Below, in pieces: positions 9,797-63,221 of a stretch of DNA of 64,000 nucleotides. The DNA comes from Flammeovirgaceae bacterium SG7u.111 (GTDB lineage: Bacteria > Bacteroidota > Bacteroidia > Cytophagales > Flammeovirgaceae), in NCBI GenBank assembly GCA_034044135.1, contig CP139021.1, positions 6,362,001-6,426,000 on the forward strand. The letters run 5' to 3'. The notes under the pieces are model-generated. The model saw only the letters and a program-made list of their open reading frames with translations. It did not search any database and was not told the origin of the DNA. The translations under genes were made by a program, and so were the position numbers. How positions within the stretch are numbered: the first letter of the stretch is position 1; each line of letters begins with the position of its first letter.

Positions 9797-9801
9797 ATCA
9801 G

Positions 9802-9838: not shown

Positions 9839-9894
9839 GTTAGTATTTTAGTTAATGAGTATTGTGTGTTCGGAATGAATTGATAGATAAAAGC

Positions 9895-40002: not shown

Positions 40003-41616
40003 ATGAAAATGAAACACAAATACCTACTCACAGCATTTATTGCCTTTTCTATATTGACCAGCTGCAAAAAAGAAAAGGCAGAAGAAGTTGCCGAAGCTTC
40101 ACCAAAACCCAATTTTATTTTCATCCTTGCCGATGATTTTGGCTACCACGACATGAGCGTGATGGGCAGCAAGTACTACGAAACGCCCAACATAGACCGA
40201 ATAGCCACTGAGGGCATGACCTTCACCGATGGCTACGCCACCTGCCAAGTATGTAGCCCATCAAGAGCAAGCATTATGCTGGGAACATTCCCTGCACGCC
40301 ACGGCATCACCGACTGGATAGGAGCAAAAACGGGTGAAAATTGGCGAAAAGCTGGTCGGTTCAACAAATTGCTCCCTCCTGAATATATACACAAGCTGCC
40401 CACAGAGGCAACCACTCTTCCCGAAGCTATGAGGGAAGGGGGCTACAAAACTTTTTTTGCTGGAAAATGGCATTTGGGAGACTCAACTTCTTGGCCTGAA
40501 CAACATGGCTTTGACATTAACAAAGGAGGATGGGACAGCGGTGGACCAAAAGGAGGATATTTCTCCCCGTTTGTTAACCCCAAACTTGAAAACAGAAAGG
40601 ATGGGGAAAACCTTTCGATGCGCTTGGCCGCCGAAACGGTGGAGTTCATGAAGCAAAACAACCCGAAAATTACAGGGCAGCCATTTTTTGCCTATCTCGC
40701 TTTTTATGCCGTGCACGGGCCTATCCAAACTACCCAAGAAAAATGGGCAAAATACCGCAAAAAAGCAGAGGAACAGGGCATAGCTGAAACTGGTTTTGAA
40801 ATGGGACATTTCTTGCCCATCCGCCAGACACAAGACAATCCTGTATACGCTGGCTTGGTGGAACAAATGGACGATGCCGTTGGGGAAGTGCTGAAGGCAG
40901 TGGACGAACTTGGACTTGGCGACAACACCGTGATCGTGTTCACTTCGGACAACGGGGGCGTGGCGGCCGGCGATGCTTTTGCTACATCCAACCTTCCGCT
41001 GAGGGCTGGAAAAGGATACCAGTTTGAAGGGGGAATCCGAGAACCTTATTTTATAAAAGCACCAGGACTAACCAAAGCGGGGGCAAAAAACACTAGCCCA
41101 GCTTCGGGTACAGACTTTTACCCCACTATTTTGGAGCTTGCCGGGCTTGAGTTGAAGCCAACCGAACATATAGATGGAGTGAGCCTAGTACCTGCATTGA
41201 AAGGAGGAAAAATAGCCACCCGCCCGCTTATTTGGCACTACCCGCATTACGGCAACCAAGGCGGCGAACCTTCGTCTATCATCAGAGAAGGGGAATGGAA
41301 ACTGGTCCATTATTATGAAGACGGAAGGGAAGAGCTCTACAACTTGGAAAACGACCTTTCGGAAACTACCGATGTAGCAAGTGAAAACAGTGAAATAGTG
41401 AGCCTAATGAGCAAGAAGCTTTTTGCCATGCTGGACGAAATGGGAGCTCGCTACCCGACCAAAGACCCTGAATGGACTGCGGAAAAAGAGCAAAAACACC
41501 TTGAAAAAATAATGACAAAAAGGTGGTCCCAGCTTGAAAAGCAGCGCATGGAATTCCTATCCCCAGATTTTGACCCTAAAAATGATTGGTGGGGAAGCAA
41601 GGTGACTGTGGATTAA
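40003..41616 (+). CDS. Family S1 sulfatase lipoprotein, plus strand
   Basis: A 537-residue exported enzyme (lipobox LTSC, Cys21) that hydrolyses sulfate esters, probably from a polysaccharide. The metal-binding start NFIFILADDFGYHD and the formylglycine site Cys84 in CSPSRAS are intact. GKWHLG, HGPI and the later metal site FTSDNGG follow, and the C-terminal region contains GEWKLVHYYEDGREELYNLE. Cys must be converted to formylglycine; no maturation enzyme gene is in the window. It is the only gene of the second locus on the plus strand, and its terminator abuts the stop of the convergent GH2 gene, so it marks the edge of the locus and is regulated separately. Confidence 0.93.
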   Translation: MKMKHKYLLTAFIAFSILTSCKKEKAEEVAEASPKPNFIFILADDFGYHDMSVMGSKYYETPNIDRIATEGMTFTDGYATCQVCSPSRASIMLGTFPARHGITDWIGAKTGENWRKAGRFNKLLPPEYIHKLPTEATTLPEAMREGGYKTFFAGKWHLGDSTSWPEQHGFDINKGGWDSGGPKGGYFSPFVNPKLENRKDGENLSMRLAAETVEFMKQNNPKITGQPFFAYLAFYAVHGPIQTTQEKWAKYRKKAEEQGIAETGFEMGHFLPIRQTQDNPVYAGLVEQMDDAVGEVLKAVDELGLGDNTVIVFTSDNGGVAAGDAFATSNLPLRAGKGYQFEGGIREPYFIKAPGLTKAGAKNTSPASGTDFYPTILELAGLELKPTEHIDGVSLVPALKGGKIATRPLIWHYPHYGNQGGEPSSIIREGEWKLVHYYEDGREELYNLENDLSETTDVASENSEIVSLMSKKLFAMLDEMGARYPTKDPEWTAEKEQKHLEKIMTKRWSQLEKQRMEFLSPDFDPKNDWWGSKVTVD

Positions 41617-41712: not shown

Positions 41713-41770
41713 CTACTCGGTAGTGCAAGGTAAAGACTAAAACACTACCGAGTAGGCTTTTTATTTCTTC
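41713..41770 (+). terminator. Intrinsic terminator between the plus-strand sulfatase and the GH2 gene
   Basis: A perfect 13-bp stem, CTACTCGGTAGTG/CACTACCGAGTAG, with a 17-base loop is followed by GGCTTTTTATTTC on the plus strand. The T-run overlaps the end of the convergent GH2 coding sequence. Confidence 0.85.
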
Positions 41771-43533
41771 AAATAATAGTCCTTCAGCACAAAGAATGCT
41801 TTCTTCTTTTTCCCTTCGCTTGAGATCAACCCTTTGCGGTTAAACCCGTCCTGATACCCTGTCAACCTTCTTCGGGGAGATTGGAAATCAATCAGAATCC
41901 AAGGGCTGATTCCCCTAAGCTGATCAATTCTCTCGCACATTTCAATATTTTCCTTATAGTACCACTCTTGGTATTCTTCGCTCCATCGAGTTAAAGAATC
42001 GGCATGAAAACCACCAAGTGCCCCTGCCCCAAACTCACTGAACACAAATGGCTTATCAAATTTAACATCCCATTTAATTTTTCTTAGTGTACTTGGCTTA
42101 CCGCCATACCAACCTATGTATTGGTTCACAGAAATGATGTCGGCATAGTTTCCAAACGGGTCATCAATTACTTTCACATCCTTATCTTCATCGGCAGCAT
42201 GTGTCAATAATGCAGCACTGATTAAACGTGTACCATCTTGCTCACGGGCAAAGTCGATCAAGCCTTTCAAAAATTTGTTCCTGCTTTCCGAAATATCTGT
42301 TTCATTGGCTACTGACCAAATGATAACAGATGCCCTGTTCTTGTCTCGGGTAATTACATCGCCCAGCATTTGTTTGGCAAGGCGAAATGTCTCCTCATTT
42401 TCCCAATCAATATCCCAATACACAGGTATTTCCTCCCAAAGCAACAAGCCCTTTTGGTCTGCCAGCTTTACAATATGCTCGTTGTGAGGATAGTGAGAAA
42501 GACGCACATAGTTAGCTCCCAGCTCCTTCGCCCAGTCGAGGAACGTACATGCCTCTTCTTTAGAATAAGCCCTGCCTCCAGTGAAGGGGCTTTCTTCGTG
42601 CATACTGATCCCTTTTAGGAAAATACTTTCACCGTTCAACAGAATGTCATGTCCTTTCACTTCAATCGTCCTAAAGCCTATTTCATCTTTCAGAACTTTC
42701 CCATTCAGCTCAAAATTCACCGAATAAAGCTTTGGATTTTCAGGAGACCAATTTGTGATGCGTTTTACTTTAATCGATTTTGAACCAATACCATCCGCAA
42801 CTCCAATTTTTTCTTCGATACCTAACTCTGGAATTTTTAAAACTACTTCTTGCCCTTCGGCACTGCCATCAACCCAAACACTGCATTCTATCTCATTTTT
42901 TGCGTCTTTTTTCAGGCGAACACTAAAGTCACGAATAAAAGCACTGTTTTCTTCGATGATCAATACATCGCGAGTAATGCCTCCAAAATTTTTCCAATCG
43001 CACTCTAGGGTAGGAATTTGTTCTTTTTCCCGAGTATTATCAACCGAAACAACCAAAGAATTTTCTCCTTTCATCAAGTCGGTCACTTCAAAAGTGAAAG
43101 GATTGAAGCCTCCTTTGTGCACCCCAAGCTTTTCCCCATTCAAATACACCTCTGCTTGGTAATTAGCCGCTCCAAAATAGAGAAAGTATCTTTTCCCCTC
43201 TTTCTTTTCGAAAGGAAAGCTTTTCTGGTACCAGATTTTCCCTTCATAATAAAGCAGTTCACTTTGCTGGGAGTTCCAGTCACCGGGCACATTGATTTGC
43301 GTTGCTGTTTCAAAGTTGTATTCGAGCAGCTCTGTTTTGTTCTTTACGTGTTTATCTTCCCAAAACTTCCTCTTTTTGCCAATTTCCGCTTGGTCTATTA
43401 TGAACTTCCATTTTCCATTTAGCGAGGTAGTTTTCCTATTATACACATTAGTGATCTGTGGAAATTCCTTTGCAGAAACTTTTATACTACTTAAAAAAAG
43501 AAGTATAAAAAGATAGTTTATATAATTTTTCAT
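41761..43533 (-). CDS. GH2 glycoside hydrolase, beta-glucuronidase-like
   Basis: A 590-residue exported enzyme with a signal peptide ending near VSAKE. The usual GH2 order is seen: jelly-roll domain (about 35-200, SLNGKWKFIIDQ, GAANYQAEVYLNGEKLGVHK), Ig-like domain (about 200-290, GFRTIEVKGHDILLNG) and TIM barrel (about 300-590). The acid/base is Glu411 in WSVANETDI and the nucleophile Glu500 in FVFSEFGAGA. Short length and the IWSVANE text fit beta-glucuronidases better than LacZ-type enzymes, but galactosidase or other exo-activity is possible. It is the last gene of a minus-strand run of sulfatases and esterase, suggesting late-stage trimming of desulfated oligosaccharides. Confidence 0.9.
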   Translation of the reverse strand: MKNYINYLFILLFLSSIKVSAKEFPQITNVYNRKTTSLNGKWKFIIDQAEIGKKRKFWEDKHVKNKTELLEYNFETATQINVPGDWNSQQSELLYYEGKIWYQKSFPFEKKEGKRYFLYFGAANYQAEVYLNGEKLGVHKGGFNPFTFEVTDLMKGENSLVVSVDNTREKEQIPTLECDWKNFGGITRDVLIIEENSAFIRDFSVRLKKDAKNEIECSVWVDGSAEGQEVVLKIPELGIEEKIGVADGIGSKSIKVKRITNWSPENPKLYSVNFELNGKVLKDEIGFRTIEVKGHDILLNGESIFLKGISMHEESPFTGGRAYSKEEACTFLDWAKELGANYVRLSHYPHNEHIVKLADQKGLLLWEEIPVYWDIDWENEETFRLAKQMLGDVITRDKNRASVIIWSVANETDISESRNKFLKGLIDFAREQDGTRLISAALLTHAADEDKDVKVIDDPFGNYADIISVNQYIGWYGGKPSTLRKIKWDVKFDKPFVFSEFGAGALGGFHADSLTRWSEEYQEWYYKENIEMCERIDQLRGISPWILIDFQSPRRRLTGYQDGFNRKGLISSEGKKKKAFFVLKDYYLKK

Positions 43534-43561: not shown

Positions 43562-45061
43562 TTAAAATGCTCCAATATTAGGAGTTGCCGATACCGCCCC
43601 CCCAGCAAAGTCCTTCCCCCCCTTGTCCTCTATTTTTTTCCCTGTAAATAGTGCAGGTGACCCTTCCTTCAATTTATATCCAGCCAAGCGGTTTGGGTCG
43701 GTCATATCAATGTCAGTCCCACCAGTTCCAGGGTTTACAAACAGCGGGTTTCCTGTAAAAGGATTAGCCCCTTTCGGACTTACATTGAAATAAAGATTGT
43801 TTTCAAGAACACATGTTTCATCAGGCTCGAAGCCCCAAGTTGCTTCGTCTTCAAAGTAAAAAATGTTGTTCCAAAATGAAGTTTCAATTGGGATACGGTC
43901 TTTTTTTCCAGCATTAACAAACACACGTTTTCCCTTCCCTTTTCCAAAGTAAAGAGTGTTGTTATAAATCTTCACATCCTCTACCCCTTTTAGGCTCGGG
44001 AAGCCGTATAAAAACCCTCCTAAAAGTTCATTTTGACTAACATTATACCTGATAGTAATATCCGAATTGTAGCCTTTACGCATTATTCCACAAAACCAGT
44101 TATTATCATGGCTGTAGTTATACTGGATAACTGTTCCTTTCGATTGGTAGTCCGCATCAAACCCTCCATGATCGATATCGTCGGGGTTGTCGCTGGTGTT
44201 TCCGTAGGCCTCGTTGTATTGCACTATGCAGCCAGTCGTATTAAAATTGAACACACTATGACCCGTATCGAAGCGGCTATTGTAGGCAAGCACGTTGTAC
44301 TCCACCAACGGATTCAGTGCATACCTGATTATGATACCGTTGCGGCCTGTGTGCTCTACTCGGTTCTTTCTAATCACAAAATTGGTCCAAGGATGGTATT
44401 CGTCGGTATTGATGCCCCCCCAACTGGATTGGTTAGAAATTCCTACGCCTCCCGTATTAGCAATAGTGTTGTTTTCAATTGTTAGGTTGTGAAACTTAGT
44501 CTTGATGCTATCCCCCAAAACAAGTACATGAATCCCACCAGTTTGCTTTCCCCCAACATCTCCATTTACACGATGGACAAAGCAGTTTTTAATAGTGATA
44601 TTCTCAACCGTCCCAACATCCTCGGCAATGGCATTTATTCCTAGCAATTTGCCCTGCTGCTCTTTTGTCCCATTGGTATTAGTCACTTCAATATTGTTGA
44701 TCTCCCAGTTCGATCCGCATTTTAGCAGAAGTGCCGAAATGACCTTTCCCTCTCCGTTAATCTTGGGTTTATTGTCAATCCAATCCGTCTGGGGCTCTTT
44801 TGTTTCCTTGTTATAGGCTGATGCAATATTGGGGGAATCGACAGTGCCAGCTCCTTGAAGGATAAACTGCCCTTTAAACGTTTCCCCTTCGGCAAATAAA
44901 ACCTTACTTCCCGCTGGAAACTGATGGTTACTCCATTTGTCAAAATCTTCTTGGGTATCTATGTAAAAAACATTTGCATCCTCATCTGGAGTAAGCTGCC
45001 CACAAGAAGACAGGATAAAAATGGGGAATAAGGTTAAAAATATAAGGTTTAAGTTCTTCAT
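43562..45061 (-). CDS. Right-handed beta-helix lipoprotein, candidate polysaccharide-active enzyme
   Basis: A 499-residue surface or periplasmic lipoprotein (lipobox LSSC, Cys20). A cap region with GSKVLFAEGETFKGQFILQG leads into about ten beta-helix turns marked by NNT, KNR and YNV asparagine ladders (ENNTIANTGGVGIS, RKNRVEHTGRNGIIIRY, QYNYSHDNNWFCGIMRKGY). The conserved acidic cluster DIDHGGFDADYQSKG in mid-helix is a plausible active or metal site. Folds of this kind include polysaccharide lyases and several glycoside hydrolase families, but it matches none that I can name. It is 28 bases upstream of the GH2 gene and 38 bases downstream of a sulfatase gene, so it almost surely acts on the same glycan. 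Confidence 0.75.
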   Translation of the reverse strand: MKNLNLIFLTLFPIFILSSCGQLTPDEDANVFYIDTQEDFDKWSNHQFPAGSKVLFAEGETFKGQFILQGAGTVDSPNIASAYNKETKEPQTDWIDNKPKINGEGKVISALLLKCGSNWEINNIEVTNTNGTKEQQGKLLGINAIAEDVGTVENITIKNCFVHRVNGDVGGKQTGGIHVLVLGDSIKTKFHNLTIENNTIANTGGVGISNQSSWGGINTDEYHPWTNFVIRKNRVEHTGRNGIIIRYALNPLVEYNVLAYNSRFDTGHSVFNFNTTGCIVQYNEAYGNTSDNPDDIDHGGFDADYQSKGTVIQYNYSHDNNWFCGIMRKGYNSDITIRYNVSQNELLGGFLYGFPSLKGVEDVKIYNNTLYFGKGKGKRVFVNAGKKDRIPIETSFWNNIFYFEDEATWGFEPDETCVLENNLYFNVSPKGANPFTGNPLFVNPGTGGTDIDMTDPNRLAGYKLKEGSPALFTGKKIEDKGGKDFAGGAVSATPNIGAF

Positions 45062-45099: not shown

Positions 45100-46668
45100 T
45101 CATTTCCTTAGCCAAACAGGAATTGAATCCTTTTCGACCCAGCTCTCTATTCTTCTATCAAGATTGTCTCCTGTCCATTCAGTTTTACCTGCGGGCAAAG
45201 CATCTGTAGTGGGTAGCCATTTTTTGTGCTCGGCTATCACTTCAGCATATTGAGGATCCTCCGCCAAGTTGGTGTGCTCTCCAGGGTCATTGCGATGATC
45301 GTACAGTTCCTCGCTTCCATCTCTGTATCGGATATACCGCCAGTCATTACTTCTGATAGAATGGTTTTTATAATACCATGTATTTAACACAGGCATTTCC
45401 CTAGTTGCATCGGGTTGCTCAATCAGCGGAGTGAGGCTATGCCCTTCCAACTTTGGAGCATCGGGAAGACCACATAGCTCTGAAAGTGTTGGGTAGATAT
45501 CCAACAAGCTCACCACCTGCTTGCTTGTTTCACCGGCAGTTTTCATACCCGGCACTTTGAAAAACAAGGGAACTTTAGTCGATTCTTCCCACAAGGCTTG
45601 CTTTCTCCAGTGCTTTTTCTCCCCAAGGTGCTGCCCATGGTCCGACCAGAATACTACAATAGTATTTTCAGCATATTTGCTGTTTTCTAAGGCGGTCAAT
45701 ACTTTACCAAGTTCGTGATCAACAAACGAAATACAAGCCAAATAACCATAGACCATTTCTTTCCAATAAGTGTCGCTCAAGTTCACTACTGCATAATGGT
45801 CACCGTTTTTGATTGTTCCATAGGCTATGGATTTGCCCATCATTGGAATATCAGCCATCTCATCTTCCGGTATTTCGGGAATCTTGATTTTATTGAGATC
45901 GTACAAATCAAAAAACTCCTTGGGTGCGGTATAAGGAACATGTGGTCGTACAAACCCAACAGCCATAAAAAATGGCTTTTCATGCTCTTCTTCCAATTTG
46001 TCAACCGCCCAGTCGGCTATCAACTCATCAAACATTTTGCCCCCAGGCATATCCTCTCTATCCAAAGCACCATAACACAACGAATGCCCTTTGGCAAAGT
46101 CTTCTCCATAATGATTTACAATTTGGCTTCCTTCTTTTGGAAAAGGATAAAATTTCATGCCTTTGTACCCATCTCCGCGATCTCTGAGGTCTTTGGGTAC
46201 TTTATAGTTTGGGGCAGTTTCATCCCAAAAATCATCTACCTTGTCTTTATAATCCGATACTCCTTGATGGAATATTTTACCAACAGCCAGTGTCTTATAG
46301 CCGTTATCTTTAAAATATTGGGGAAGCATTTTATGCTCACCCATCACTTGGTCATAGGTTTTTCGCATATCGGTGGTTGATGCATACCAGCCTGAAGTAC
46401 TAGGATGAATACCACTCAAAAGAGAGTTTCTTGATGCTGTACAGACGGCTTGTGAACAATGGGCATTGGTAAACAATACGCCCTGCCCAAACAATTTGTC
46501 CATATTAGGCGTGATGGCCTGCGGATTTCCATTCAAGCCACCTACCCAATCGTTCAGATCATCTATGGAAATAAAAAGGACATTGGGCTTTTTCTGACTG
46601 ACTTTTTCCGTCTTTGCGGAACAACTAGCCATTAGCAAACCCAAAAAGAGTAAGTATATCTTTGTCAT
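45100..46668 (-). CDS. Family S1 sulfatase lipoprotein, iduronate-2-sulfatase-like, CxASR type
   Basis: A 522-residue exported lipoprotein (lipobox MASC, Cys16). It starts with NVLFISIDDLNDWVGG, typical of the iduronate-2-sulfatase-like branch. The formylglycine site is Cys76 in VCTASRNSLLSG, where Ala replaces the usual Pro of CxPSR; this variant is accepted in the known C-x-P/A-x-R consensus. Other family marks are VGKIFHQG, FVRPHVPYTAP, the metal site FWSDHGQHLGEKKHW and SIRSNDWRYIRYRDGSEELY. The resemblance to iduronate sulfatases points to desulfation of a sugar ring position, not necessarily iduronate. It is 21 bases downstream of the esterase gene in one operon. Confidence 0.93.
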   Translation of the reverse strand: MTKIYLLFLGLLMASCSAKTEKVSQKKPNVLFISIDDLNDWVGGLNGNPQAITPNMDKLFGQGVLFTNAHCSQAVCTASRNSLLSGIHPSTSGWYASTTDMRKTYDQVMGEHKMLPQYFKDNGYKTLAVGKIFHQGVSDYKDKVDDFWDETAPNYKVPKDLRDRGDGYKGMKFYPFPKEGSQIVNHYGEDFAKGHSLCYGALDREDMPGGKMFDELIADWAVDKLEEEHEKPFFMAVGFVRPHVPYTAPKEFFDLYDLNKIKIPEIPEDEMADIPMMGKSIAYGTIKNGDHYAVVNLSDTYWKEMVYGYLACISFVDHELGKVLTALENSKYAENTIVVFWSDHGQHLGEKKHWRKQALWEESTKVPLFFKVPGMKTAGETSKQVVSLLDIYPTLSELCGLPDAPKLEGHSLTPLIEQPDATREMPVLNTWYYKNHSIRSNDWRYIRYRDGSEELYDHRNDPGEHTNLAEDPQYAEVIAEHKKWLPTTDALPAGKTEWTGDNLDRRIESWVEKDSIPVWLRK

Positions 46669-46689: not shown

Positions 46690-47472
46690 TTAGTTTTTCA
46701 AAAGTTTAAGCATTTCTTCGGCATATCGCTCTCCCATTAGCCGCTGGCTTTGCGAATCAAAATGAGTGCTGTCTATCGTACTTGTATTTTCGGAAGTTGC
46801 TACCGCTACCCTGTCAATTTTTTTTGGAAGCTGAATGATCATCTGGTTAAAATCAATTCGCACTTCTTTATCTTCCGATAATTGCCCTACTACCACCGGA
46901 AGATCTGGATTGTTGAACTCCTCCCGAAAAGCCTCAATGAGGGCAATGACCTTTGGAGTGTACGATTCATACTTTGAAGCATCCCCTTCCCCTTGATGCC
47001 ATGCAATTCCTTTCAGAGTGCCGAATTTCAAAGCTGCCTTGGTTTGTTTCACCGCTTCATTGTAATAATCCGTTCCTTTAGCCCAAGAAGATATATTTGT
47101 CCCCCCTTTGGCATTCACCACCAAGCCAATTTGCTTTCCAGCATTGTTTTCGATCATTTTTTGGGCAAAAGAATACCCAGGTCCCAACTTTTGCATCGAA
47201 AGCTTTTTGCGGATAGTAGAATATTTGTTCAACGGATTTGCTGCTTTTTCCCATTCTTTTCCTTCTATTCCCGTAAAAAGGAAAACACCCTTGAGGGAAT
47301 CCTGGTCCTGCATTTCAATTTCCGCCCTTCCAGCCATATTCGACTGACCGATTAGCAGGTAAATATCCAAGCCCACTTGCCCCACTTCTGGGCCAGAATT
47401 TGGAATTACGACCGCACTTTTACAGCCAATAAGAAAAAATAGTAAAAGGACGAGCCTAAAACTTCTATTCAT
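46690..47472 (-). CDS. SASA-domain carbohydrate acetylesterase (CE6 / sialate O-acetylesterase-like)
   Basis: A 260-residue lipoprotein (lipobox LIGC, Cys17) of the SGNH-type SASA family. The nucleophile is Ser44 in IGQSNMAGRA. AWHQGEGD at 157-164 is the conserved block III, and Asp234-His237 in DSTHFDS complete the triad. Family members remove O-acetyl groups from xylan, sialic acid or other glycans. In this operon, between two sulfatases, it most likely deacetylates the sulfated polysaccharide so the glycosidases can act. Gaps to the neighbours are 60 and 21 bases. Confidence 0.88.
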   Translation of the reverse strand: MNRSFRLVLLLFFLIGCKSAVVIPNSGPEVGQVGLDIYLLIGQSNMAGRAEIEMQDQDSLKGVFLFTGIEGKEWEKAANPLNKYSTIRKKLSMQKLGPGYSFAQKMIENNAGKQIGLVVNAKGGTNISSWAKGTDYYNEAVKQTKAALKFGTLKGIAWHQGEGDASKYESYTPKVIALIEAFREEFNNPDLPVVVGQLSEDKEVRIDFNQMIIQLPKKIDRVAVATSENTSTIDSTHFDSQSQRLMGERYAEEMLKLLKN

Positions 47473-47532: not shown

Positions 47533-48951
47533 TTACCACGTATAGTCCTTTCCTTCACGGCTTTCCCTCCAAGACTTTTTAACCTCTTCAAGCTTCGCCT
47601 TCATTTCCTCAAATAACTCTGGTTTTTCACTGGAAATATCCTTTGTTTCACCGGGATCGGCTTTCAAATCAAAAAGCATCATTTTTTCCCCTTTTTCAGG
47701 AATGCATATTTTGTATTGATTTTCGATGTAGGCATACAATTCCGTGTCTTTGTAAAGACGCTGAAATCCTGAGGCTATAGGCACTTCTCTCTGGCCTGAT
47801 TTTCCTGAAAAAACAGGAACAAGGCTGACACCGTCCAAAGGAATCTTTTTAGTAGGTTTTACATCAATGATATCAAGGATTGTCGGTAAATAATCGACAG
47901 TACCAGATTGGAAACTACTGGTTTGCCCGGCCTTCACCTGACCTGGCCACTCAACAACTGAAGGCACACGAAGCCCTCCTTCCCACATCTGGTGCTTGTG
48001 CCCACGGTACGGCCCAGCTGAAGCAATTCCCCACTTAGCCTGCGGATCGGAAGGACCATTGTCACTACAGAAAAACAAGATCGTATTTTCCTCTATCCCC
48101 TTGTCTCTCAGCAACTTTCTCAAACGACCAATTTGGTCATCCATCGCAGTGATGCACCCGTACAAATGTTTTTGTTCCTCTGCCAAATCAGGGTATTTGG
48201 CAAGGTATTCAGGTCCTGCCGCTATTGGCTCGTGAGGGGTGTGAAACCAAATAGTTGCAAAAAATGGCTTTCCTTCATCAATCGATTTTTCTATAAACGG
48301 AACTGCCCTGTCCATAATGACGCGGCTGTCGTCCCCTTCTAGGTTTTCTGTAACGGGTACGCCATTATGAATGTAAATCGATCCTCCCCAAGAACCATCT
48401 TCCCTAGACCCGAACCCAGTCCAGCCCTCAGGTGTTTTTGTTGGGTTCCACGTAGGCACAGCACTTTTTGTGGCAAATACTTCATCGTAACCATGATGCC
48501 AAGGTGGGGAATAAAACCCACGTGTTTCTACTTTGTCGGGCTCTATCCACCCCAAGTGCCATTTTCCAAAGAAACCAGTTGCATACCCTTCTTTTTTAAG
48601 GTATTCGGCAATCGTTTTTTCAGCGGGGCGCATCCCCCCAGTGTGAGCTGCCAAAACCCCTTGTCGGAATGGGGCTCTACCCGTCAAAACACTGGCACGA
48701 GTTGGTGAACATAAGGGTGCAGCTGCATAAAAGTCTGTAAACCGAATCCCAGACTCCGCCATATCGTCCAGTTGAGGCGTGATTATTTTCTCATTTCCAT
48801 TAAAGCCTACATCTCCCCAGCCGAGGTCATCTGCCATTATCAAGATGATATTTGTTGGTTTAGCAGCTTCTTGGGAACGACTTTGCAAATGCAAGCCAAG
48901 AGTAAGTACGATTGCTAAAATCGATGTGAAAAATGTCCTCTCTAAATTCAT
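47533..48951 (-). CDS. Family S1 sulfatase, N-acetylgalactosamine-6-sulfatase-like
   Basis: A 472-residue exported enzyme. A signal peptide ends near residue 27 (SRSQEA), with no lipobox, so it is probably periplasmic. NIILIMADDLGWGDVGFNG starts the alkaline-phosphatase-like fold, and the formylglycine precursor is Cys81 in LCSPTRASVLTG. FGKWHLGW, TPHEPIAAG and FFCSDNGPSDPQ are the further active-site blocks, and the end is YKICIPEKGEKMMLFDLKAD with WRESREGKDYTW. The sequence style is that of GalNAc-6-sulfatase-like bacterial enzymes. It is the first gene after the terminator that follows susD, and so heads the downstream enzyme operon. Confidence 0.93.
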   Translation of the reverse strand: MNLERTFFTSILAIVLTLGLHLQSRSQEAAKPTNIILIMADDLGWGDVGFNGNEKIITPQLDDMAESGIRFTDFYAAAPLCSPTRASVLTGRAPFRQGVLAAHTGGMRPAEKTIAEYLKKEGYATGFFGKWHLGWIEPDKVETRGFYSPPWHHGYDEVFATKSAVPTWNPTKTPEGWTGFGSREDGSWGGSIYIHNGVPVTENLEGDDSRVIMDRAVPFIEKSIDEGKPFFATIWFHTPHEPIAAGPEYLAKYPDLAEEQKHLYGCITAMDDQIGRLRKLLRDKGIEENTILFFCSDNGPSDPQAKWGIASAGPYRGHKHQMWEGGLRVPSVVEWPGQVKAGQTSSFQSGTVDYLPTILDIIDVKPTKKIPLDGVSLVPVFSGKSGQREVPIASGFQRLYKDTELYAYIENQYKICIPEKGEKMMLFDLKADPGETKDISSEKPELFEEMKAKLEEVKKSWRESREGKDYTW

Positions 48952-49047: not shown

Positions 49048-50676
49048 CTAATTATAACCTGGGTTTTGCCCCATCTCTAAATCCGTATTTGAATCTATGA
49101 TAGACAACGGAATTGGAAGCAACGCATTCTCTGGGCTTACTGTGCTCGCATCTAGTCTTGGGTTGTATTTTACTGCCCACTCATAGAATTTGCCAGTTCT
49201 CACCAACGTATGCCTGCGGTACTCTTCCGTAACCAATTCTCTTGAACGCTCTTTGAGGATAAAATCAAGAGTGACATCTCCAGCAGTAATTGCCGAGGCA
49301 TTAGAACGCCCTCTTAATTCATTAAGCAAATCTGCTGCTTGCCCTCCTTTCCCATTTTTCATCAGTGCTTCGGCTGCCAACAAATATGTTTCTGCTAATC
49401 TCATGAACATCTGATCGTCGTATTGTCCTGCACGTGACGCATTTTCAAACACATAGGGGTCGTTATATTCCCACTTTCTTACCCATGGCCACAAAAAATG
49501 ATCTTCCAAATCGCTAGGTTCATCATAATCCATATCAGAATACCTTAAGGTATCAAAGGTAGTTCCATCATCATCTGCAGGATAGATGTAGTACTTTTTC
49601 ACCATATACTCAGAGTACCTGTCATCAAACGGCTCGTACCAATTGAAAGCAGAGTCAGAAACAGAAATACGACCAGCACCTTTTCCTCCATTGTATGTGT
49701 ACAAAATATCTAGGTCCGTCTTCTTTAACTTACTATCTTTTGCATAATAAGAGAACCAAGTATTTTTCATGTATAGATATGCATTTCCTACCACATCCAT
49801 GTAGGCATTATTCAATACCCAAAGGACTTCTTTGTTTTCAGTGTGAGTTGGGTTTTTGAACAAATCTGAAAAAACAGTACCAGGCTCTCCAGCAGTCTCC
49901 CCAAACCTAGTGGTCATCAAGTTATACTCACCACTATTGATCACACGCAACGCTTCTGTTTCTGCCTTGTCATTTTCCTCCATTGCAAGATATAGCTCTG
50001 CTAGCATTGTTCCTGCCACAGCACTATTAACCATCCCTGCATCTTCCTTCATGGCAAGGTTGTCGCGGGCAAATATCAGATCAATTTCCATTTGATCATA
50101 AATCTCATCAACAGACGCTCTCTCCCAATCGCTCCTATACGTAGTACCTGAAATCTCTTCAAGGCTCAAAGGGACTTCGCCCCAACCGAATCGCAAGTGT
50201 CGATAAGCCCATGCACGGATTAACCTAGCTTGAGCAATCGCTTTGTTCTTATTTGCTAAATCTTCTTCATCTGACAGGCCAAGCCAATCTACATCACCCT
50301 CTGCCCTTTCAATGATCATATTGGCTGAGTTGACAATTCGATAAAGCCAGTTAAAATTATTCTCAACCAAACCGTTCGATGAATTCAAATTTGAATAATC
50401 ATTGAATGGGTCGGTCGCTCCTGCCCCATTATTTACAAAGGCGTTATCTGTGCCCATTTGCCATAAAGCAGCCCTAGTAACATTGTTAGATGATTCTCTA
50501 TCTTGGCGAACCAAGCTATAAAGAGCGTTTAATCCGTTGTTGAACCCATCGTAATTCACAAACAGGTTATCGGAAAAAATATCATCCTTTGGGCTCTCCT
50601 CCAAAAATTCCGTCTCGTTACACCCAACCATGGTGAATGCGAAACACATTGTGAGTATTATTAATATTCTTTTCAT
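49048..50676 (-). CDS. susD: SusD/RagB-family glycan-binding lipoprotein of the sulfated-glycan locus
   Basis: A 542-residue outer-membrane lipoprotein (lipobox MVGC, Cys19). SusD signatures are FNNGLNALYSLVRQ near the N-terminus, AQARLIRAWAYRHLRFGWGEV in the TPR region, MRLAETYLLAAEALMKNGKG, and the C-terminal RSRELVTEEYRRHTLVRTGKF and LLPIPLSIIDSNTDLEMGQN. It ends in NPGYN as usual. It should bind the target polysaccharide at the surface together with the SusC channel, whose gene lies 21 bases upstream. A strong terminator follows it. Confidence 0.95.
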   Translation of the reverse strand: MKRILIILTMCFAFTMVGCNETEFLEESPKDDIFSDNLFVNYDGFNNGLNALYSLVRQDRESSNNVTRAALWQMGTDNAFVNNGAGATDPFNDYSNLNSSNGLVENNFNWLYRIVNSANMIIERAEGDVDWLGLSDEEDLANKNKAIAQARLIRAWAYRHLRFGWGEVPLSLEEISGTTYRSDWERASVDEIYDQMEIDLIFARDNLAMKEDAGMVNSAVAGTMLAELYLAMEENDKAETEALRVINSGEYNLMTTRFGETAGEPGTVFSDLFKNPTHTENKEVLWVLNNAYMDVVGNAYLYMKNTWFSYYAKDSKLKKTDLDILYTYNGGKGAGRISVSDSAFNWYEPFDDRYSEYMVKKYYIYPADDDGTTFDTLRYSDMDYDEPSDLEDHFLWPWVRKWEYNDPYVFENASRAGQYDDQMFMRLAETYLLAAEALMKNGKGGQAADLLNELRGRSNASAITAGDVTLDFILKERSRELVTEEYRRHTLVRTGKFYEWAVKYNPRLDASTVSPENALLPIPLSIIDSNTDLEMGQNPGYN

Positions 50677-50697: not shown

Positions 50698-53631
50698 TTA
50701 AAAACCTAATTTCACACCCAACAAATATGTAGCTTGCTGAGGCACTGCATCCTGATTCTCAAACTGTGGGTCTAAGCCTTCCCAGCTCGTCCAAGTAGCC
50801 AAGTTTGTTATATTGCCATACACTTCGAAATTTTGCAGCCTCATCTTATCCAAAACTGATTGTGGGAGAGAGTAGCCGAGAGAAATATCTTGCAACCTCA
50901 GGAAGTCAGCATTTCTGTAAAATGGCATACTGAACTCGTTTACAATAGAACTTTTGTCGTTTCGAGGGTATTCATTACTTCCATTTTCTTCCGTCCAAAA
51001 CTCTACATTGTAGCGGTTTTGTCTCATGTCAAGGTCATTCGTACCTAGGAGGTCATTAGCTTTGGTAATGCCTGTAACTCCGTAAAGGAAAAAGCTAAAT
51101 CTCCAGTTTTTATATGAAAAAGTATTTGTTAAGCCTAGTACCACATCTGGAATTCTACGTCCGATAACTTGCCTGTCATCAGCAGATATGAGTGAGTCGC
51201 CAGTAGTATCAAAGTACCTAATATCTCCAGCACTCACATCGCCTCTCGGAGTACCCTCTTCATCTTCTTGGTAGATTCCATCGAAAACATATCCGTAATT
51301 CACAACAACTGGCTCGCCGATAAACCATTTGTTGCCAACATCGTCAATGTAGTTTCCATTATCATCTGTCAAGCCTACATGCACAATTTTTGAGTTGTAA
51401 TGAGAGACATTTAAGTTAGTTGTCCATTTGAAATCATTGTTATCGATATTGATAGATGACAGTTGTAGCTCGATACCATTGTTTTTAGTTTCTCCAATGT
51501 TTTGGGTAATGTAAGTGGTTCCATTTACCGATGAAATAGCCCTCTCTAAAAGAAGATCAGTTGTATTTGACCAATACGCATCAATAGAACCAGTGAGGCG
51601 ATTACCAAAGTATCCAAAATCAAGCCCTGCATTGAATGAAGTGGTTGTTTCCCAACCTAGCGACGGATCTCCTAGTCTGCTTGGATAAAAACCAAACAGC
51701 GTATTGTCATCGCCGTCTACATAGTCAATAGATGAAAGCCTAGGCAATGTAGAATAAGCTGAAACTGCTTCATTACCATTTTTACCATAAGACACTCTCA
51801 ATTTCAATGCTCCGAGCTGTTCCGAATTGGCAAGGAACTGCTCATTGGCAATATTCCAACCAAGAGCTACTGATGGGAAAATACCAAACTTGCTATCTTC
51901 TCCAAATGCTGAAAATCCATCTCTCCTTGCGGTTAGAGTTAGCAAGTAACGGCTATCAAACCCATAGTTCACACGCAACATTTGAGAAATATGTGTCCTT
52001 AAACTATAGGAAGAACTTGGCTCAACCAAACTCGCTTTGCTAGCCTGATAATAAGTCATTACGTCATTAGGAAACCCTTGGGCATCGATGTCATGATCTT
52101 CAGCCCATTCGCTTTGCGCACTGTAAAGCCCTGTAAAAAACAAAGAATGAACACCAAAATCACGCTTATAATTGATAATATTCTCAACTAGCCAATCTTC
52201 GTCATGTCCATTATCAACAGAAAGAGATCCATTTACACGTGCACCTGTCAGTGTGTTTCTACCCCTATAGGTCTGATTAAGACTTGATCGGTAATCATAA
52301 CCAGTATTTAACTTATATGACAATCCTTCTACACCAGGGATTTCAAAAAGAAGGCTATTGTTCGTTGTGAACCTTCTGGTTATATTATTATTACTATTTA
52401 AAAGTGGAGTAAGTGGGTTTTCCGCATACACACCATCTTCCCAAGTCTCTAGTCTAATGCTTCCATCTTCGTTATATGGTATGCCCAGCGGGTTCATAGT
52501 AAATGCCCTTGAAAAACTGGCATTGTTTCCACTTCGGTCATAATACCCATATTGTGTGTTTGTATTAAAGGTAATCCAGTTGCCAAGCTTGTGCCCTAGG
52601 TTAAGCCTAAAAGTGTATCGGTTAAATTTATCTCCAACAGCAATACCTTTGTTGTCAACATAAGCCATTGATATGAAATAATTGGTCTTTGCCGTTCCTC
52701 CAGAAAAAGACAAATTATGCTGTTGATTGCTGCCCGTTTGGGTCGCCAAATCAATCCAGTCAGTGTTTCGTCCACTGTCGTACCCCTCGTCTTCTATCGC
52801 AGTAGTAGCTAGTCCTCTTTCTACTTTTGTTTCATAAAAGGTTTTCCCATCCATCATATCTGGAATGTTGATAACCTTGTTCCAAGAATAGAACCCATCG
52901 TAATTCACTTTCAACTCTCCTTCTTTTCCTTTTACAGTAGTGATAAGGATTACGCCATTCGAACCACGAGCTCCATAAATTGCTGCTGAAGAGGCATCTT
53001 TCAATACTTCTATAGAACCGATATCTCGAGGGTTCAACTCTGACAAATTCCCCGCATAGGGAACTCCGTCCAAAATAATGAGAGGTTCGTTAGAAGCAGA
53101 GATTGAGTTTGAGCCTCTGATCAACATCGAGTTGGAAGAACCTTCTGCATTTGAAGCATCTTGATTAATAGTTAAACCTGCCATCGTACCTTGTAGCAAA
53201 TTTTCAAGGCTAGCCCGTGGCCGCGATTCCAACACGTCTTTATCGATAGAAGCTACCGAACCAGTAACATCACTTTTCTTTTGTGTACCATACCCTACAA
53301 TCACCACCTCATTTAAAGACTGGATATCTAAAATCAGAGAAACATCAATTACATTTTGGCTACCTACCTGAATTTCTTCTGATAAATATCCAATGTAACT
53401 AAAAACTAAAATGTCTTCTGGGTTAGCTTTGATGGAGAACTCTCCATCTATGTTGGTTGTAGTACCACCTGTCGTACCCTTAATTATAATATTCACGCCC
53501 GGTAAGAGACCACCGTCATCTGAGCTTGTAACCACACCCGTGATCGAGCTTTGAGCTTGCAAAGCAACCATAGCCATCAAAACAAAAAATAAGGTTAAGC
53601 CTGGCCTAATTTTCCAGTAATTCATTTTCAT
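50698..53631 (-). CDS. susC: SusC/RagA-family TonB-dependent receptor of the sulfated-glycan locus
   Basis: A 977-residue outer-membrane transporter. Signal peptide 1-26, then the carboxypeptidase-regulatory-like domain (about 28-105, ITGVVTSSDDGGLLPGVNII), TonB-box region NEVVIVGYGTQKKSDVTGSV, plug domain (LQGTMAGLTINQ to GVILITTVKG) and barrel ending in LLGVKLGF. Unlike the first SusC it has no STN domain, which fits control by the adjacent HTCS regulator instead of an ECF/FecR pair. It would import sulfated oligosaccharides with SusD. A 33-codon ORF ends 17 bases before its start. Confidence 0.95.
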   Translation of the reverse strand: MKMNYWKIRPGLTLFFVLMAMVALQAQSSITGVVTSSDDGGLLPGVNIIIKGTTGGTTTNIDGEFSIKANPEDILVFSYIGYLSEEIQVGSQNVIDVSLILDIQSLNEVVIVGYGTQKKSDVTGSVASIDKDVLESRPRASLENLLQGTMAGLTINQDASNAEGSSNSMLIRGSNSISASNEPLIILDGVPYAGNLSELNPRDIGSIEVLKDASSAAIYGARGSNGVILITTVKGKEGELKVNYDGFYSWNKVINIPDMMDGKTFYETKVERGLATTAIEDEGYDSGRNTDWIDLATQTGSNQQHNLSFSGGTAKTNYFISMAYVDNKGIAVGDKFNRYTFRLNLGHKLGNWITFNTNTQYGYYDRSGNNASFSRAFTMNPLGIPYNEDGSIRLETWEDGVYAENPLTPLLNSNNNITRRFTTNNSLLFEIPGVEGLSYKLNTGYDYRSSLNQTYRGRNTLTGARVNGSLSVDNGHDEDWLVENIINYKRDFGVHSLFFTGLYSAQSEWAEDHDIDAQGFPNDVMTYYQASKASLVEPSSSYSLRTHISQMLRVNYGFDSRYLLTLTARRDGFSAFGEDSKFGIFPSVALGWNIANEQFLANSEQLGALKLRVSYGKNGNEAVSAYSTLPRLSSIDYVDGDDNTLFGFYPSRLGDPSLGWETTTSFNAGLDFGYFGNRLTGSIDAYWSNTTDLLLERAISSVNGTTYITQNIGETKNNGIELQLSSINIDNNDFKWTTNLNVSHYNSKIVHVGLTDDNGNYIDDVGNKWFIGEPVVVNYGYVFDGIYQEDEEGTPRGDVSAGDIRYFDTTGDSLISADDRQVIGRRIPDVVLGLTNTFSYKNWRFSFFLYGVTGITKANDLLGTNDLDMRQNRYNVEFWTEENGSNEYPRNDKSSIVNEFSMPFYRNADFLRLQDISLGYSLPQSVLDKMRLQNFEVYGNITNLATWTSWEGLDPQFENQDAVPQQATYLLGVKLGF

Positions 53632-53875: not shown

Positions 53876-56800
53876 TTACTTATTGGAAGAAGAAGAGTCG
53901 GGAGATTCCGAAAAAGAAGCCATATACTTTGTTGGTGTTTGTCCAAAATACTCCTTGAATTGTTCTCTGAAATAGTCTGCATGCTGGTATCCTACGGAAT
54001 ACCTGACCTCTGAAATACTCAACTTACCAGTCTTGAGCAACTGCGCTGCGTATTCTAACCGGATTTTTTTAATAAACCCAACAGGAGTTAGGTTTGTTAA
54101 TGCTTTTATCTTTCGATAAAGGTGCACTCTGCTCATCCCTACCTCGTTGGCTATTGACTCAACAGATAGATCCGATTCTGAAATATTCTTGTTTATATAG
54201 TCAATCGTCTTATTCAGAAAAGCTTCATCTACAGAAGTCACCGACACGTCCTCTGGAACCAGTTTAAATGTATTTCCTGTTTGTTCTCGAAGAGCAATTC
54301 TTTGGTCGATTAAATTCCTTGTTCTTGCCTTAAGCAAATTGCTGCTAAAAGGCTTCGTCACATAATCGTCTGCCCCCGTTTCAAACCCTTTTATCTGAAA
54401 AGTAACCGCAGTTCGGGCAGTAAGCAAAATTACAGGAATATGGCTAGTTCTTTGGTCAGTCTTAATTTTTCTACATAATTCCATTCCATCCATCTCAGGC
54501 ATCATCACATCGCTAATGATGAGCTCAGGTGTGCCCTCAAGAGCTTTTTCAAAACCGACCTTCCCGTTTGGCGCCTCAACCACCTCATATTCTGATGAAA
54601 ACAGCTCTACCAAAAGGCTTCTAACCTGTTCGTTATCTTCTACAATCAGAACCGTATATTTTTCATTTCCTCCCTCTACCTCTGTATTTTGTCCACTTTG
54701 CGCAGGCTCTCTATGGCTCGGTTGGCTTTTGTCGTCAACATCAAAACTTTTGGTATACAAAGAAATATCCTCGCTACTTTGAAAATCGTGGATAATTTGG
54801 GTATCGGTCAAATGCTCTTTTCCTCTTGGAATCCTAATTGTGAACTTTGTGTTTCCTGGTTTTCCTTCTTGAGCTTCCACGCTATCCACCTGAATAACCC
54901 CTGAGTGCAGCTCCACAAATTTTTTGGTGATTTCCAGCCCGACCCCCAACCCAAGTCTCCTTCGTTTAGTATCTTTTTCAGTTTGATAAAACCGATCAAA
55001 AATATTTTCCAATTGATCTGCCGGAATCCCCACACCGCTGTCTGCCACTACAATTTCCACATACCCATTTTTGTAACGCTTTTGCTCTTCCTCTTGCAAA
55101 GCTTCTTTGGCAAACTCTGCTACGCACAACTCTATTTTTCCTCCTTCAGGAGTAAATTTTAGTGCATTAGAAAGAAGGTTATACATCACAATCTCCATTT
55201 TGTCACGATCAAACCATAACTGCGTCTGTTCATTGTTGAATATTACTTCAAAATCAATTTTTTTCTGGGATGCCGGTTCCCGAAAGGCCAAAGAAATTTC
55301 TTTGACAAAAGAGCTTATATTTCCTTCTGCTGCCTCCAAAGCCAAATGTCCTTTTTCTAGCTTTCTCAAATCGAGCAGCTGATTAATAAGCTGAAGCATC
55401 CGCTCTCCATTTCGTTGGATGATTCCCAGTTGGTTTTTAAGTCGAGGGCTTCCAGAAGTATTGGTTATTAAATTCTCCAATGGAGCCAAAATGAGCGTTA
55501 GAGGAGTTCTCAGTTCATGGGATATATCAGTAAAAAATATTATCCTTTGCTGGTGCAATTCGTTTTCTTTTTCCCGCTGCATGTGCTCCCACTCCAAATT
55601 GCTTTTTAACCTTCCCCATTTCGAAGCAAAAACGAAAAACAAGTACAACAGACCCAACAATACCACAGCGTACATAATATATGCCCAAACCGTCCTCCAC
55701 AATGGAGGTGAAACAATGATGTGTAATATATTCTCGTTTGTCCCCCAATCACCTACATCATTCGTTGCTTTTACCTTTAGCGTATAATCGCCTGGTTGTA
55801 GCTTTGAAAAGCTAATTCTTCTTTGGTTACCAATTACATTCCATTCTTTGTCAATAGGATCTAACTTATAGGCATAGTTTATTTCATTGGGCTCAAAGAA
55901 GTTCAAACCCGCAAATTCGATTGAAAAATCTGAATACGAGTACGCTAAAGATATTTTAGTATTTCTCTTGAGAACTAGGGAATCAAAAGAGCTCCTTACC
56001 GATGAGTCGGAAACGAGAAGGGTTTTGAAAACGACGTCAGGATGGTTTACGGTTGTTGTTACGTCCTCAGGAAAAAAAGTGGTGAACCCATAAGACCCTC
56101 CAAAAAACAGTTGCCCACTTTTTGCTTTGTACGCACTATTGGGGTAGTGTTGGTATCCTTGAACTCCATCAGATTTATTAAAATTCATGATTTTGTTTAC
56201 GACCAACGACTCCTTTTCTGGATCACGAATTAAATCTAGCGTCGAAATACCTTTGTTGGTACTAACCCATAGTTTTCCATTGTCATCTTCCAAAATTCCA
56301 TTAATGGTATTGTCAGCCAAACCATCGCCAATGCTGATATTTATTATTTCTCCAGACTGGGTATCATAAGCTAAAAGTCCCCTCCCTAAAGTCCCTATCA
56401 TCAACACGTCTTCTTTTGACAGCAGCATGCTAAGCACCTCAAGATTTCGGGTTTTTTCAAAAACGGCATCGGTTTTTAGTTTCTCTCTAGTAAAAAGCCC
56501 CTTTTCGGTATCAAAATACTCCAGCCCCCTTTCCGTACCAACCCATAAATTTCCTTTTCTATCTTCGGAAATAGCCCAAACATGGGAGTCTACATATTTA
56601 TCTGTCTCATTTTCAAGCTCAAAGTAGGTAATAAATGACTTATTAATTTTATCATATTTCTTCAGCCCTCCTCCTTGAGTCCCAATCCAAATTTGCTTTT
56701 TAGCATCTTGGTAGATAACCTGGATGTGATGATTTCCAATAGAACTTTTACTATCAGGTTTATCTCTAAAACTAAAAGAATTACCAGATTTTGTATTCCA

Positions 56801-58129
56801 AATACTTAAACCAACAAACCCTCCGGCCCAGAGGTTACCGCTTTCATCCAGTAAAATAGATTTGATTGTATTTTCAATCAACCCAGCATGCTCTTCATAA
56901 TAATGTTCAAAAACACCCGTAGACACATTGAAAAAGTTCAAACCGTTTTCAGTTCCTATCCAGATATTCCCCGACGTATCTTCACAGAATGAAGAGACGA
57001 GGTTGTCACTAAGCCCTTCATTAGAAATTATTTCTTCTTTGTAATGCTTGAACCTGCTAAGGGCAGAATGCGTGTAATTCACGCCTCCGTTATAAGTTGC
57101 TATCCATATTCCTCCTTCTCTATCTTCGTATATATCTCGAACAGAGTTCTGGCTTAGCGATTTATCGTCATATTTGTTATGAGTATAAATAAAAAATTCC
57201 TCATTCAAAGGATCATAAATACTCAAGCCACTGAATGCGCCTATCCAAACAGACCCATTGGAAAGTTGTTTCAAAACCCGAACCCTATTACCAGGCAGGG
57301 TATTTTGGTCATCCGAATCACTAGTAAAAACCTCAACAGAATCTTTACCACTGCCCAATACAAAAACCCCAACATCTTCTGATTCAGTTGCAAACCAATG
57401 ATTCCCCTGCTTATCAATAAGCAAATCTCTAAAAGGCTCACCGCTCTCAAATACTGGGAGGTTTCGAGGGCTGAACTGTTCTATTTCCAAACCATTTTCC
57501 AGCCTATAAACGCCTTTATTAGTACAAAACCACAAAATACCATCGTGCCCTTCTACTATCTTATAAACACTCACATCAGAAACTAAACTAAAACTATCTC
57601 CTCGTTCATCTAGCTTGATGAACTCTTGAGAGGAGGGGTTGAAACAGTAAACCCCTGAAGATGTACCAAGCCACAAATTATCATGTCCATCTTGGATAAT
57701 AGAATGAACAAACAGTTCTTGAGTATTGGTGTTGGGGGGCTGGAATCTATGGAAGCCTTTATTCTCATTTACATACAAATTCAACCCTTTAGATGTGCCA
57801 ACCCAAAGCTGCCCATTGTTCGACCTATACAATTCTGTTATTCTACTACTGCTCAGGGAAAGAGAATCAGCCCCATCATTCCTAAAAACAGTTAAGTCAT
57901 ATCCATCGTACCTATTTAGCCCATCATTTGTTCCAAACCACATGTACCCTTCATCATCCTGAATTATGCTCCAAACAGTATTATTTGAAAGCCCTTCTTC
58001 AATACTGAGATGGCGAAACTTGAGATCTTGGCAATAAGCTACAGTATCCCAAATACCAAAACTTAAAATGATGGCGATAAAAGATAGTTTTATGTAATGT
58101 TGAATCACAACAATAAGATGTTTTATCAA
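53876..58129 (-). CDS. Hybrid two-component system (HTCS) regulator of the sulfated-glycan locus
   Basis: A 1417-residue one-protein signalling system. A signal/anchor segment is followed by a periplasmic sensor of two seven-bladed Reg_prop propellers (e.g. DDEGYMWFGTNDGLNRYDG, DSSGNIWIGTENGLNFF) and a Y_Y_Y domain (about 715-810, RISFSKLQPGDYTLKVKATN). After a membrane helix (about 813-836) come HisKA (His871 in TDISHELRTPL), HATPase (NLLSNALKFTPEGG), a receiver (Asp1207 in IISDVMMPEMDG) and an AraC-type helix-turn-helix end (SIANEVGMSRVHLYRKIKAL). HTCS proteins bind oligosaccharides in the periplasm and activate their PUL. No ATG exists in frame: TTG at 58127-58129 or GTG at 58106-58108 must be the start. 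Confidence 0.95.
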   Translation of the reverse strand: MIKHLIVVIQHYIKLSFIAIILSFGIWDTVAYCQDLKFRHLSIEEGLSNNTVWSIIQDDEGYMWFGTNDGLNRYDGYDLTVFRNDGADSLSLSSSRITELYRSNNGQLWVGTSKGLNLYVNENKGFHRFQPPNTNTQELFVHSIIQDGHDNLWLGTSSGVYCFNPSSQEFIKLDERGDSFSLVSDVSVYKIVEGHDGILWFCTNKGVYRLENGLEIEQFSPRNLPVFESGEPFRDLLIDKQGNHWFATESEDVGVFVLGSGKDSVEVFTSDSDDQNTLPGNRVRVLKQLSNGSVWIGAFSGLSIYDPLNEEFFIYTHNKYDDKSLSQNSVRDIYEDREGGIWIATYNGGVNYTHSALSRFKHYKEEIISNEGLSDNLVSSFCEDTSGNIWIGTENGLNFFNVSTGVFEHYYEEHAGLIENTIKSILLDESGNLWAGGFVGLSIWNTKSGNSFSFRDKPDSKSSIGNHHIQVIYQDAKKQIWIGTQGGGLKKYDKINKSFITYFELENETDKYVDSHVWAISEDRKGNLWVGTERGLEYFDTEKGLFTREKLKTDAVFEKTRNLEVLSMLLSKEDVLMIGTLGRGLLAYDTQSGEIINISIGDGLADNTINGILEDDNGKLWVSTNKGISTLDLIRDPEKESLVVNKIMNFNKSDGVQGYQHYPNSAYKAKSGQLFFGGSYGFTTFFPEDVTTTVNHPDVVFKTLLVSDSSVRSSFDSLVLKRNTKISLAYSYSDFSIEFAGLNFFEPNEINYAYKLDPIDKEWNVIGNQRRISFSKLQPGDYTLKVKATNDVGDWGTNENILHIIVSPPLWRTVWAYIMYAVVLLGLLYLFFVFASKWGRLKSNLEWEHMQREKENELHQQRIIFFTDISHELRTPLTLILAPLENLITNTSGSPRLKNQLGIIQRNGERMLQLINQLLDLRKLEKGHLALEAAEGNISSFVKEISLAFREPASQKKIDFEVIFNNEQTQLWFDRDKMEIVMYNLLSNALKFTPEGGKIELCVAEFAKEALQEEEQKRYKNGYVEIVVADSGVGIPADQLENIFDRFYQTEKDTKRRRLGLGVGLEITKKFVELHSGVIQVDSVEAQEGKPGNTKFTIRIPRGKEHLTDTQIIHDFQSSEDISLYTKSFDVDDKSQPSHREPAQSGQNTEVEGGNEKYTVLIVEDNEQVRSLLVELFSSEYEVVEAPNGKVGFEKALEGTPELIISDVMMPEMDGMELCRKIKTDQRTSHIPVILLTARTAVTFQIKGFETGADDYVTKPFSSNLLKARTRNLIDQRIALREQTGNTFKLVPEDVSVTSVDEAFLNKTIDYINKNISESDLSVESIANEVGMSRVHLYRKIKALTNLTPVGFIKKIRLEYAAQLLKTGKLSISEVRYSVGYQHADYFREQFKEYFGQTPTKYMASFSESPDSSSSNK

Positions 58130-60077: not shown

Positions 60078-63221
<3,144 letters not shown>

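Follow-up and report, generated by a model that had tools for sequence, protein, structure and literature searches.

The GH136 enzymes characterised in the papers that we found have human-milk and mucin-type sugars as substrates. LnbX is described as a retaining beta-helix enzyme with a pocket, for which a second gene is required, and its evolutionary origin is termed enigmatic in a review (PMC8106489). A study of ErLnb136 gives D568 as the acid/base and D575 as the nucleophile, has Trp548 of a WPW motif stacking on galactose, and relates the open active site seen in one enzyme that tolerates fucose to loops 1 and 2 being shorter there (PMC7335108). Annotated GH136-plus-sulfatase loci without a known substrate have already been published. 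A paper on Winogradskyella forsetii describes an "otherwise enigmatic" locus with GH136 enzymes and sulfatases and no obvious substrate (PMC9723794), and one on Flammeovirga MY04 lists GH136 as enriched on chromosome II (PMC8653839). The protein analysed here, GHx, is a distinct GH136 variant. It has the GH136 annotation in common with both of these systems (PMC9723794, PMC8653839), a likeness known from the descriptions and covering annotation rather than clade placement, and with the W. forsetii locus it shares the presence of sulfatases beside GH136 (PMC9723794). Our literature search, which left subscription journals mostly uncovered, brought up no characterised GH136 enzyme that has a sulfated glycan as its substrate, and no paper on GH136 with ulvan or on the beta-galacturonidase AqGalA (see below).

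GHx is encoded at 43562..45061 on the minus strand of the window (the whole stretch of DNA analysed, 64,000 nucleotides) by an ORF of 499 aa with an ATG start. It is co-directional with its close neighbours, lying 38 bp from the upstream sulfatase and 28 bp from the downstream GH2 gene. The N-terminus, read directly, is a signal sequence with an LSSC end, and MKNLNLIFLTLFPIFILSSC-G contains a lipobox-like Cys20; judged from its sequence the protein is a probable lipoprotein. An AlphaFold2 model computed from an alignment of GHx and 10 homologues (mean pLDDT 83.4, pTM 0.86) is a beta-helix from about residue 28 onward. The ORF, Cys20 and the model together bear out the preliminary description, which had called this gene a beta-helix lipoprotein; the label "unassigned" that it also used is less apt, as GHx is recognisably related to GH136. 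No Pfam family was found at E 0.1. The single NCBIfam match is to the LnbX lacto-N-biosidase model (E 6.6e-10, 37.5 bits), far below the equivalog cut-off of 2500 bits for a model that is 1498 positions long and fits LnbX itself. A PDB sequence search to E 10 matched five chains, GH136 only (7v6m, 5.8e-29; 6kqs, 1e-13; 5gqc, 5.4e-13; 24mr, 2.5e-12; 7v6i, 4.2e-10), of which four are named lacto-N-biosidase; 7v6m is titled lacto-N-biosidase TnX.

The predicted fold gives the same answer. With the GHx model as query, GH136 chains take Foldseek ranks 1-6 (5.8e-20 to 4.0e-12), followed by a PL6 lyase at 3.2e-7. VIA-align places TnX, LnbX and BsaX at the top (Z 37.9, 37.4 and 36.5; 450-452 residues, 2.3-2.4 A), with structural-alignment identities of a low 28-30%; the next family is mannuronan epimerase at Z 30.9, and mannuronan epimerases and PL6 lyases occupy Z 28-31. 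ErLnb136, the enzyme whose residues were mapped onto GHx, ranks only 34th in this list (Z 26.0, 348 residues, 2.2 A), with several other beta-helix families above it. The nearest solved relatives of GHx by sequence and by predicted fold are therefore GH136 lacto-N-biosidases, and similarity at the level of the GH136 superfamily is present in both; the structure comparison that the preliminary description had called for thus came out in favour of catalytic beta-helices, not non-catalytic ones. With TnX (7V6M), BsaX (7V6I), LnbX (5GQC) and ErLnb136 (6KQS) GHx shares a right-handed beta-helix across nearly the whole chain, but only about 30% identity or less. A plasmid search with GHx matched 41 records, each below 60% identity, which shows only that the superfamily is wide. 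A phage tailspike-type protein was also considered and rejected; the PHROGs scan gave one weak match, at E 0.066.

An acidic cluster that had been picked out by eye as conserved-looking lies in the motif DIDHGGFDADYQSKG (GHx residues 295-309, window 44135-44179), and it is now the predicted active site because it aligns with the catalytic pair of ErLnb136 and is conserved. D568 and D575 of that enzyme (PDB chain numbers run two higher) align with Asp297, the predicted acid/base (codon 44171..44173, minus strand), and Asp304, the predicted nucleophile (codon 44150..44152, minus strand), so that GHx and the four GH136 enzymes have both Asp residues at the same seven-residue spacing. Conservation was read from a 50-row alignment of the GHx query, three lacto-N-biosidase pieces and 46 homologues. 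Asp stands at position 297 in 49 of the 50 rows (Glu in the other) and at position 304 also in 49 (Gly in the other), and both positions belong to the 11 best conserved query columns, a set with no other charged column; position 302 is more variable (Asp 38, His 11, Ser 1). In the GHx clade described below, all 12 rows have Asp at position 304, and all but one, which has Glu, have it at position 297 too. By sequence alignment chain 24mr has Ser at the second catalytic position, and we take it to be a nucleophile variant. The homologue rows derive from 50 matching fragments at 48 of 49 loci; removing nine with a short matched span and 11 from duplicate loci left 30, and the nine short-span rows were restored for the Asp count and are absent from the trees. 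Locus L012, which the genome search matched but the fragment matching did not, carries the same GQGYD motif and lies outside this count. A deep branch (rows among L010, L014-L016 and L019-L025) consists of larger GH136-like proteins, several per genome, that have His for Asp302 and keep the catalytic pair.

In a maximum-likelihood tree of 41 rows GHx falls within a 12-row branch supported at 100/100, and the three lacto-N-biosidases form another with an Enterococcus plasmid protein, likewise at 100/100. Named members of the GHx clade come from Bacteroidota, Verrucomicrobiota, Planctomycetota and Kiritimatiellota. In contrast to TnX, BsaX, LnbX and ErLnb136, GHx has FNF for WPW (Phe273 replaces Trp548), shorter loops 1 and 2, and added basic residues, most of which lie on the catalytic sheet or next to it. 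In the Er and TnX pieces loop 1 is 12 residues long, and GHx has no residue there; loop 2 counts 24 residues in Er and LnbX and 10 in GHx. Loop 2 is not part of the TnX piece used for this comparison, nor loop 1 of the LnbX piece. Across 10 clade rows R240, R246, R263 and H268 are invariant and positions 298, 328 and 329 are always basic; at 240, 246, 263, 268, 298 and 328-329 the lacto-N-biosidases have G, M, A/G, A, G/S and gaps, respectively. R240 and R246 are not exclusive to the clade, since they or their like are found in some rows outside it (R246 also in sister rows, and Arg at both 240 and 246 in the distant row L009). Clade-specific invariant residues occupy 13 of 55 positions on the catalytic-side sheet, against 6 of the 90 that make up the two remaining sheets (Fisher test, one-sided, p 0.004), a pointer rather than proof because neighbouring columns are non-independent and sheets were assigned by strand order rather than distances; 16 more such residues occur among 160 positions outside strands. 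GHx also differs from the four enzymes in having no recognisable GH136I (LnbY) partner, which the known enzymes require, and in sitting in a sulfatase operon with SusC/D: the adjoining operon genes were all assigned to other Pfam families, in a scan that used no GH136I profile, and no fused GH136I domain is apparent in the model, where the chain is all beta-helix from residue 28. The Enterococcus protein that groups with the lacto-N-biosidases keeps WPW and is encoded on E. faecalis plasmid Efsorialis-p1 (NZ_CP015884.1; L072:5839-7584), typed conjugative, where it adjoins an annotated beta-galactosidase, PTS genes, an arylsulfatase and a SPASM-domain protein.

The operon runs on the minus strand, in order of transcription, from a hybrid two-component regulator (53876..58129, Pfam), the probable regulator of the locus, through a SusC-type TonB-dependent receptor (50698..53631; Plug and carboxypeptidase-regulatory domains), a SusD-type binding protein (49048..50676; PF07980), the sulfatase sulf3 (47533..48951; family match, CSPTR site), a SASA-family acetylesterase with a lipoprotein-like N-terminus (46690..47472; PF03629) and the sulfatase sulf2 (45100..46668; PF00884, CTASR site) to GHx and a GH2 enzyme (41761..43533). 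The nearest solved relative of sulf2 is 6HHM (241.5 bits, vs 167.8 bits for human iduronate-2-sulfatase). The GH2 is uronidase-like, being nearest to 6D89 and to AqGalA, and has an NRKG motif, presumably the carboxylate-reading motif of glucuronidases. 6HHM is P18_S1_7, an ulvan 2-sulfo-xylose sulfatase (PMC9096561). Two further sulfatases possibly belong to the GHx locus, both recognised as sulfatases by Pfam and sequence match: sulf1, which is divergent (40003..41616, plus strand), and sulf4 in a neighbouring gene group (58623..60074, minus strand). The CxPxR or CxAxR site is kept in all four sulfatases. Upstream of the regulator come sulf4, a LacZ-type GH2 (60078..63206, minus strand; Pfam, sequence match), a further GH2 that runs from 63333 past 64000, a GH29 and a second regulator. 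Sulf4 is nearest to 7ANA/7AN1, which we take to be gut mucin-type sulfatases.

The gene types in this operon (sulfatases, an acetylesterase, GH2) are as the preliminary description gave them, except that its one "GH2 enzyme" becomes two complete GH2 genes in the window and a third that continues past 64000. It had also seen no clear endo-acting enzyme in the window, and this stands for the ORFs scanned with Pfam, none of which is a known endo-acting CAZyme; three larger ORFs had no informative family (14587-15678, 27711-29951 and 15694-18405, the last with a secretion tail only), and a new kind of enzyme may be among them. Just beyond 64000, where an endo-enzyme was looked for, there are instead the GH2, a GH29 fucosidase and a hybrid two-component regulator. 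By family, none of sulf4, the LacZ-type GH2, the GH2 from 63333 and the GH29 is known to be endo-acting.

Three genomes of the Prolixibacteraceae group contain the operon in whole or in part. A Draconibacterium MAG (L033, L054) has it in the same order, with identities to the window genes of 73% (SusC), 71% (SusD), 71% (sulf3), 63% (SASA), 62% (sulf2) and 66% (GHx). Interspersed are a family-less 495-aa protein, GH39-like and epimerase-like proteins, three more sulfatases, a protein with a weak likeness to PL25 ulvan lyase (3.3e-8) and a family-less 771-aa protein; the locus has ulvan-like traits. A second genome, G488, keeps sulf3, SASA, sulf2 and GHx together with relatives of the GH39-like, epimerase-like, 495-aa and 771-aa proteins, and its SusC and SusD reach only 47% and 40% identity with those of the window. 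The third, G483, keeps SASA, the GH39-like protein and GHx (SusC 44%, SusD 38%) and has no sulf2 or sulf3 in the stretch read. Because the locus is 62-73% identical in a distant family, its sequence suggests horizontal transfer; G+C content (0.39-0.42, vs 0.403 for the window) is uninformative on this point. The families of the 771-aa protein (L033:5968-8283, L064:14020-16356) and the 495-aa protein (L054:4363-5850, L064:9220-10650) recur in syntenic loci and may be pathway enzymes that still lack an assignment. Pfam, NCBIfam and PDB sequence searches returned nothing for the 771-aa protein of L033:5968-8283, and an alignment-free structure prediction was uninformative (mean pLDDT 33.5). The window's own genome gave no match to it and two weak ones to the Draconibacterium GH39-like protein (E 3.1e-4 and 4.2e-4).

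Close GHx orthologues appear to be rare in the sequenced genomes searched. At E 1e-60 a match was found in four of 140 genomes of the family of genome G412, two of them already known from an earlier search, and among 395 genomes drawn from the window's class only the window's own genome matched. At E 1e-10, 10 of 18 genomes of the window's own family match GHx (the window genome included), the best other match having 34% identity. Of 42 superfamily loci, 17 have a sulfatase-like match no more than 1.5 kb away in either direction, several of them being near-copies of each other; the random-gene expectation of about 5%, derived from the sulfatase density of the window's genome given below, is rough arithmetic, not a test, and ignores clustering and other genomes. 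At L036 a sulfatase lies about 2.7 kb from the GHx relative, and L031 has an 80% identical sulf2 relative about 8 kb upstream of its GHx, the adjoining sulfatase being a different one. No sulfatase match was found in the examined stretches of L029, L030, L032, L035 and L037, some of which end at contig ends. In the window's own family, L006, L007, L008, L013, L017 and L018 encode single-domain GH136-like proteins of about 490-520 aa that keep WPW; five adjoin a sulf2-like sulfatase and one a sulf4-like one.

We consider it fairly likely that GHx belongs to the GH136 superfamily as a retaining glycoside hydrolase, exported and probably anchored by a lipid, with a rebuilt cleft that suits an anionic glycan, and that it makes the main cut in the operon. 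Its homology and predicted fold, the conserved catalytic pair, the separate clade and the recurrence of the operon are computed results. For its activity, retaining mechanism, anionic substrate, step order and cut site we infer the following. Asp297 would first donate a proton to the leaving group and afterwards activate water, and Asp304 would attack the anomeric carbon to give a covalent intermediate. The FNF in place of WPW, the shorter loops and the added conserved Arg, His and Lys suggest that the rebuilt cleft would bind an anionic glycan (sulfated and/or uronic-acid-bearing), not neutral Gal-beta1,3-GlcNAc, and this groove and its setting among sulfate-removing enzymes mean that GHx probably cuts a sulfated glycan. 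Its task would be the main cut, in the backbone or at a branch, yielding short pieces for import by SusC/D, and the sulfatases, the esterase and the uronidase-like GH2 would strip substituents and end sugars. The gene content of the operon indicates a glycan that is both sulfated and acetylated and carries uronic acid in beta linkage. The second gene group hints at galactose and fucose, although its target may be another glycan. GHx perhaps acts within the chain, the shorter loops being the one pointer to this. It remains the best candidate for the depolymerising or side-chain-cleaving step that had been proposed for it; the sulfated-galactan substrate and the depolymerising action proposed at the same time gain no direct support.

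Could GHx simply be a usual lacto-N-biosidase? It would then free Gal-beta1,3-GlcNAc, which might carry sulfate or fucose, from the mucin-like glycans of animals in the sea, with sulf4, the LacZ-type GH2 and GH29 as the rest of the pathway. Its nearest solved relatives are such enzymes, the neighbouring group has a LacZ-type GH2, a GH29 and a sulfatase nearest 7ANA/7AN1, and at L028 a GH136-like protein that keeps WPW adjoins a sulfatase 42% identical to sulf4. However, WPW, loop 1 and most of loop 2 are missing from GHx, its clade is set apart at 100/100, and the syntenic Draconibacterium genes are GH39-like and weakly PL25-like, not mucin-type. We find this reading unlikely: with its own clade, FNF, shorter loops, no recognisable partner and added basic residues, GHx is probably not a lacto-N-biosidase.

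That GHx might be a non-catalytic, glycan-binding surface beta-helix of the SusC/D complex is suggested by its being a probable lipoprotein encoded in a SusC/D operon, and NosD and other non-catalytic beta-helices do occur lower in the fold list, but binding alone would not demand a catalytic pair conserved as it is in the 12 clade rows across four phyla, and we regard this as improbable. The same pair, that of a retaining glycoside hydrolase, argues against reading GHx as a polysaccharide lyase or an epimerase from the broader set of beta-helix enzymes, such as PL6 or mannuronan epimerase, with a uronate glycan as its substrate. PL6 lyases and mannuronan C5-epimerases share the beta-helix fold with GHx and have anionic substrates, they come next in the fold list at Z 28-31, and the operon does contain a uronidase-like GH2; yet the GH136 fold match is clearly higher, and no sequence match of GHx to either was seen (Pfam E 0.1; PDB to E 10), and we regard this too as improbable.

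More tentatively, the GHx clade might represent a new specificity, that of a single-subunit, open-cleft GH136-type enzyme cutting a glycan that bears sulfate and uronic acid, perhaps at internal sites. In that case the lacto-N-biosidases of the gut would be one host-adapted offshoot of a far broader environmental superfamily with many members beside sulfatases, and the question of where LnbX came from would be closer to an answer. A clade with the same catalytic pair, a rebuilt and more basic cleft, members in four phyla and frequent proximity to sulfatases offers a defined protein, residues and operon for tracing the substrate of GH136-plus-sulfatase loci in marine bacteria.

Elsewhere in the window, another SusC/D locus lies at 619-11748 and encodes two arabinofuranosidase-type proteins along with a FecR-type protein and a sigma factor. 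Pfam matches to sulfatases number 63 in the 7.7 Mb of the window's genome (some genes counted twice), many of them clustered, which marks it as that of a heavy degrader of sulfated glycans.
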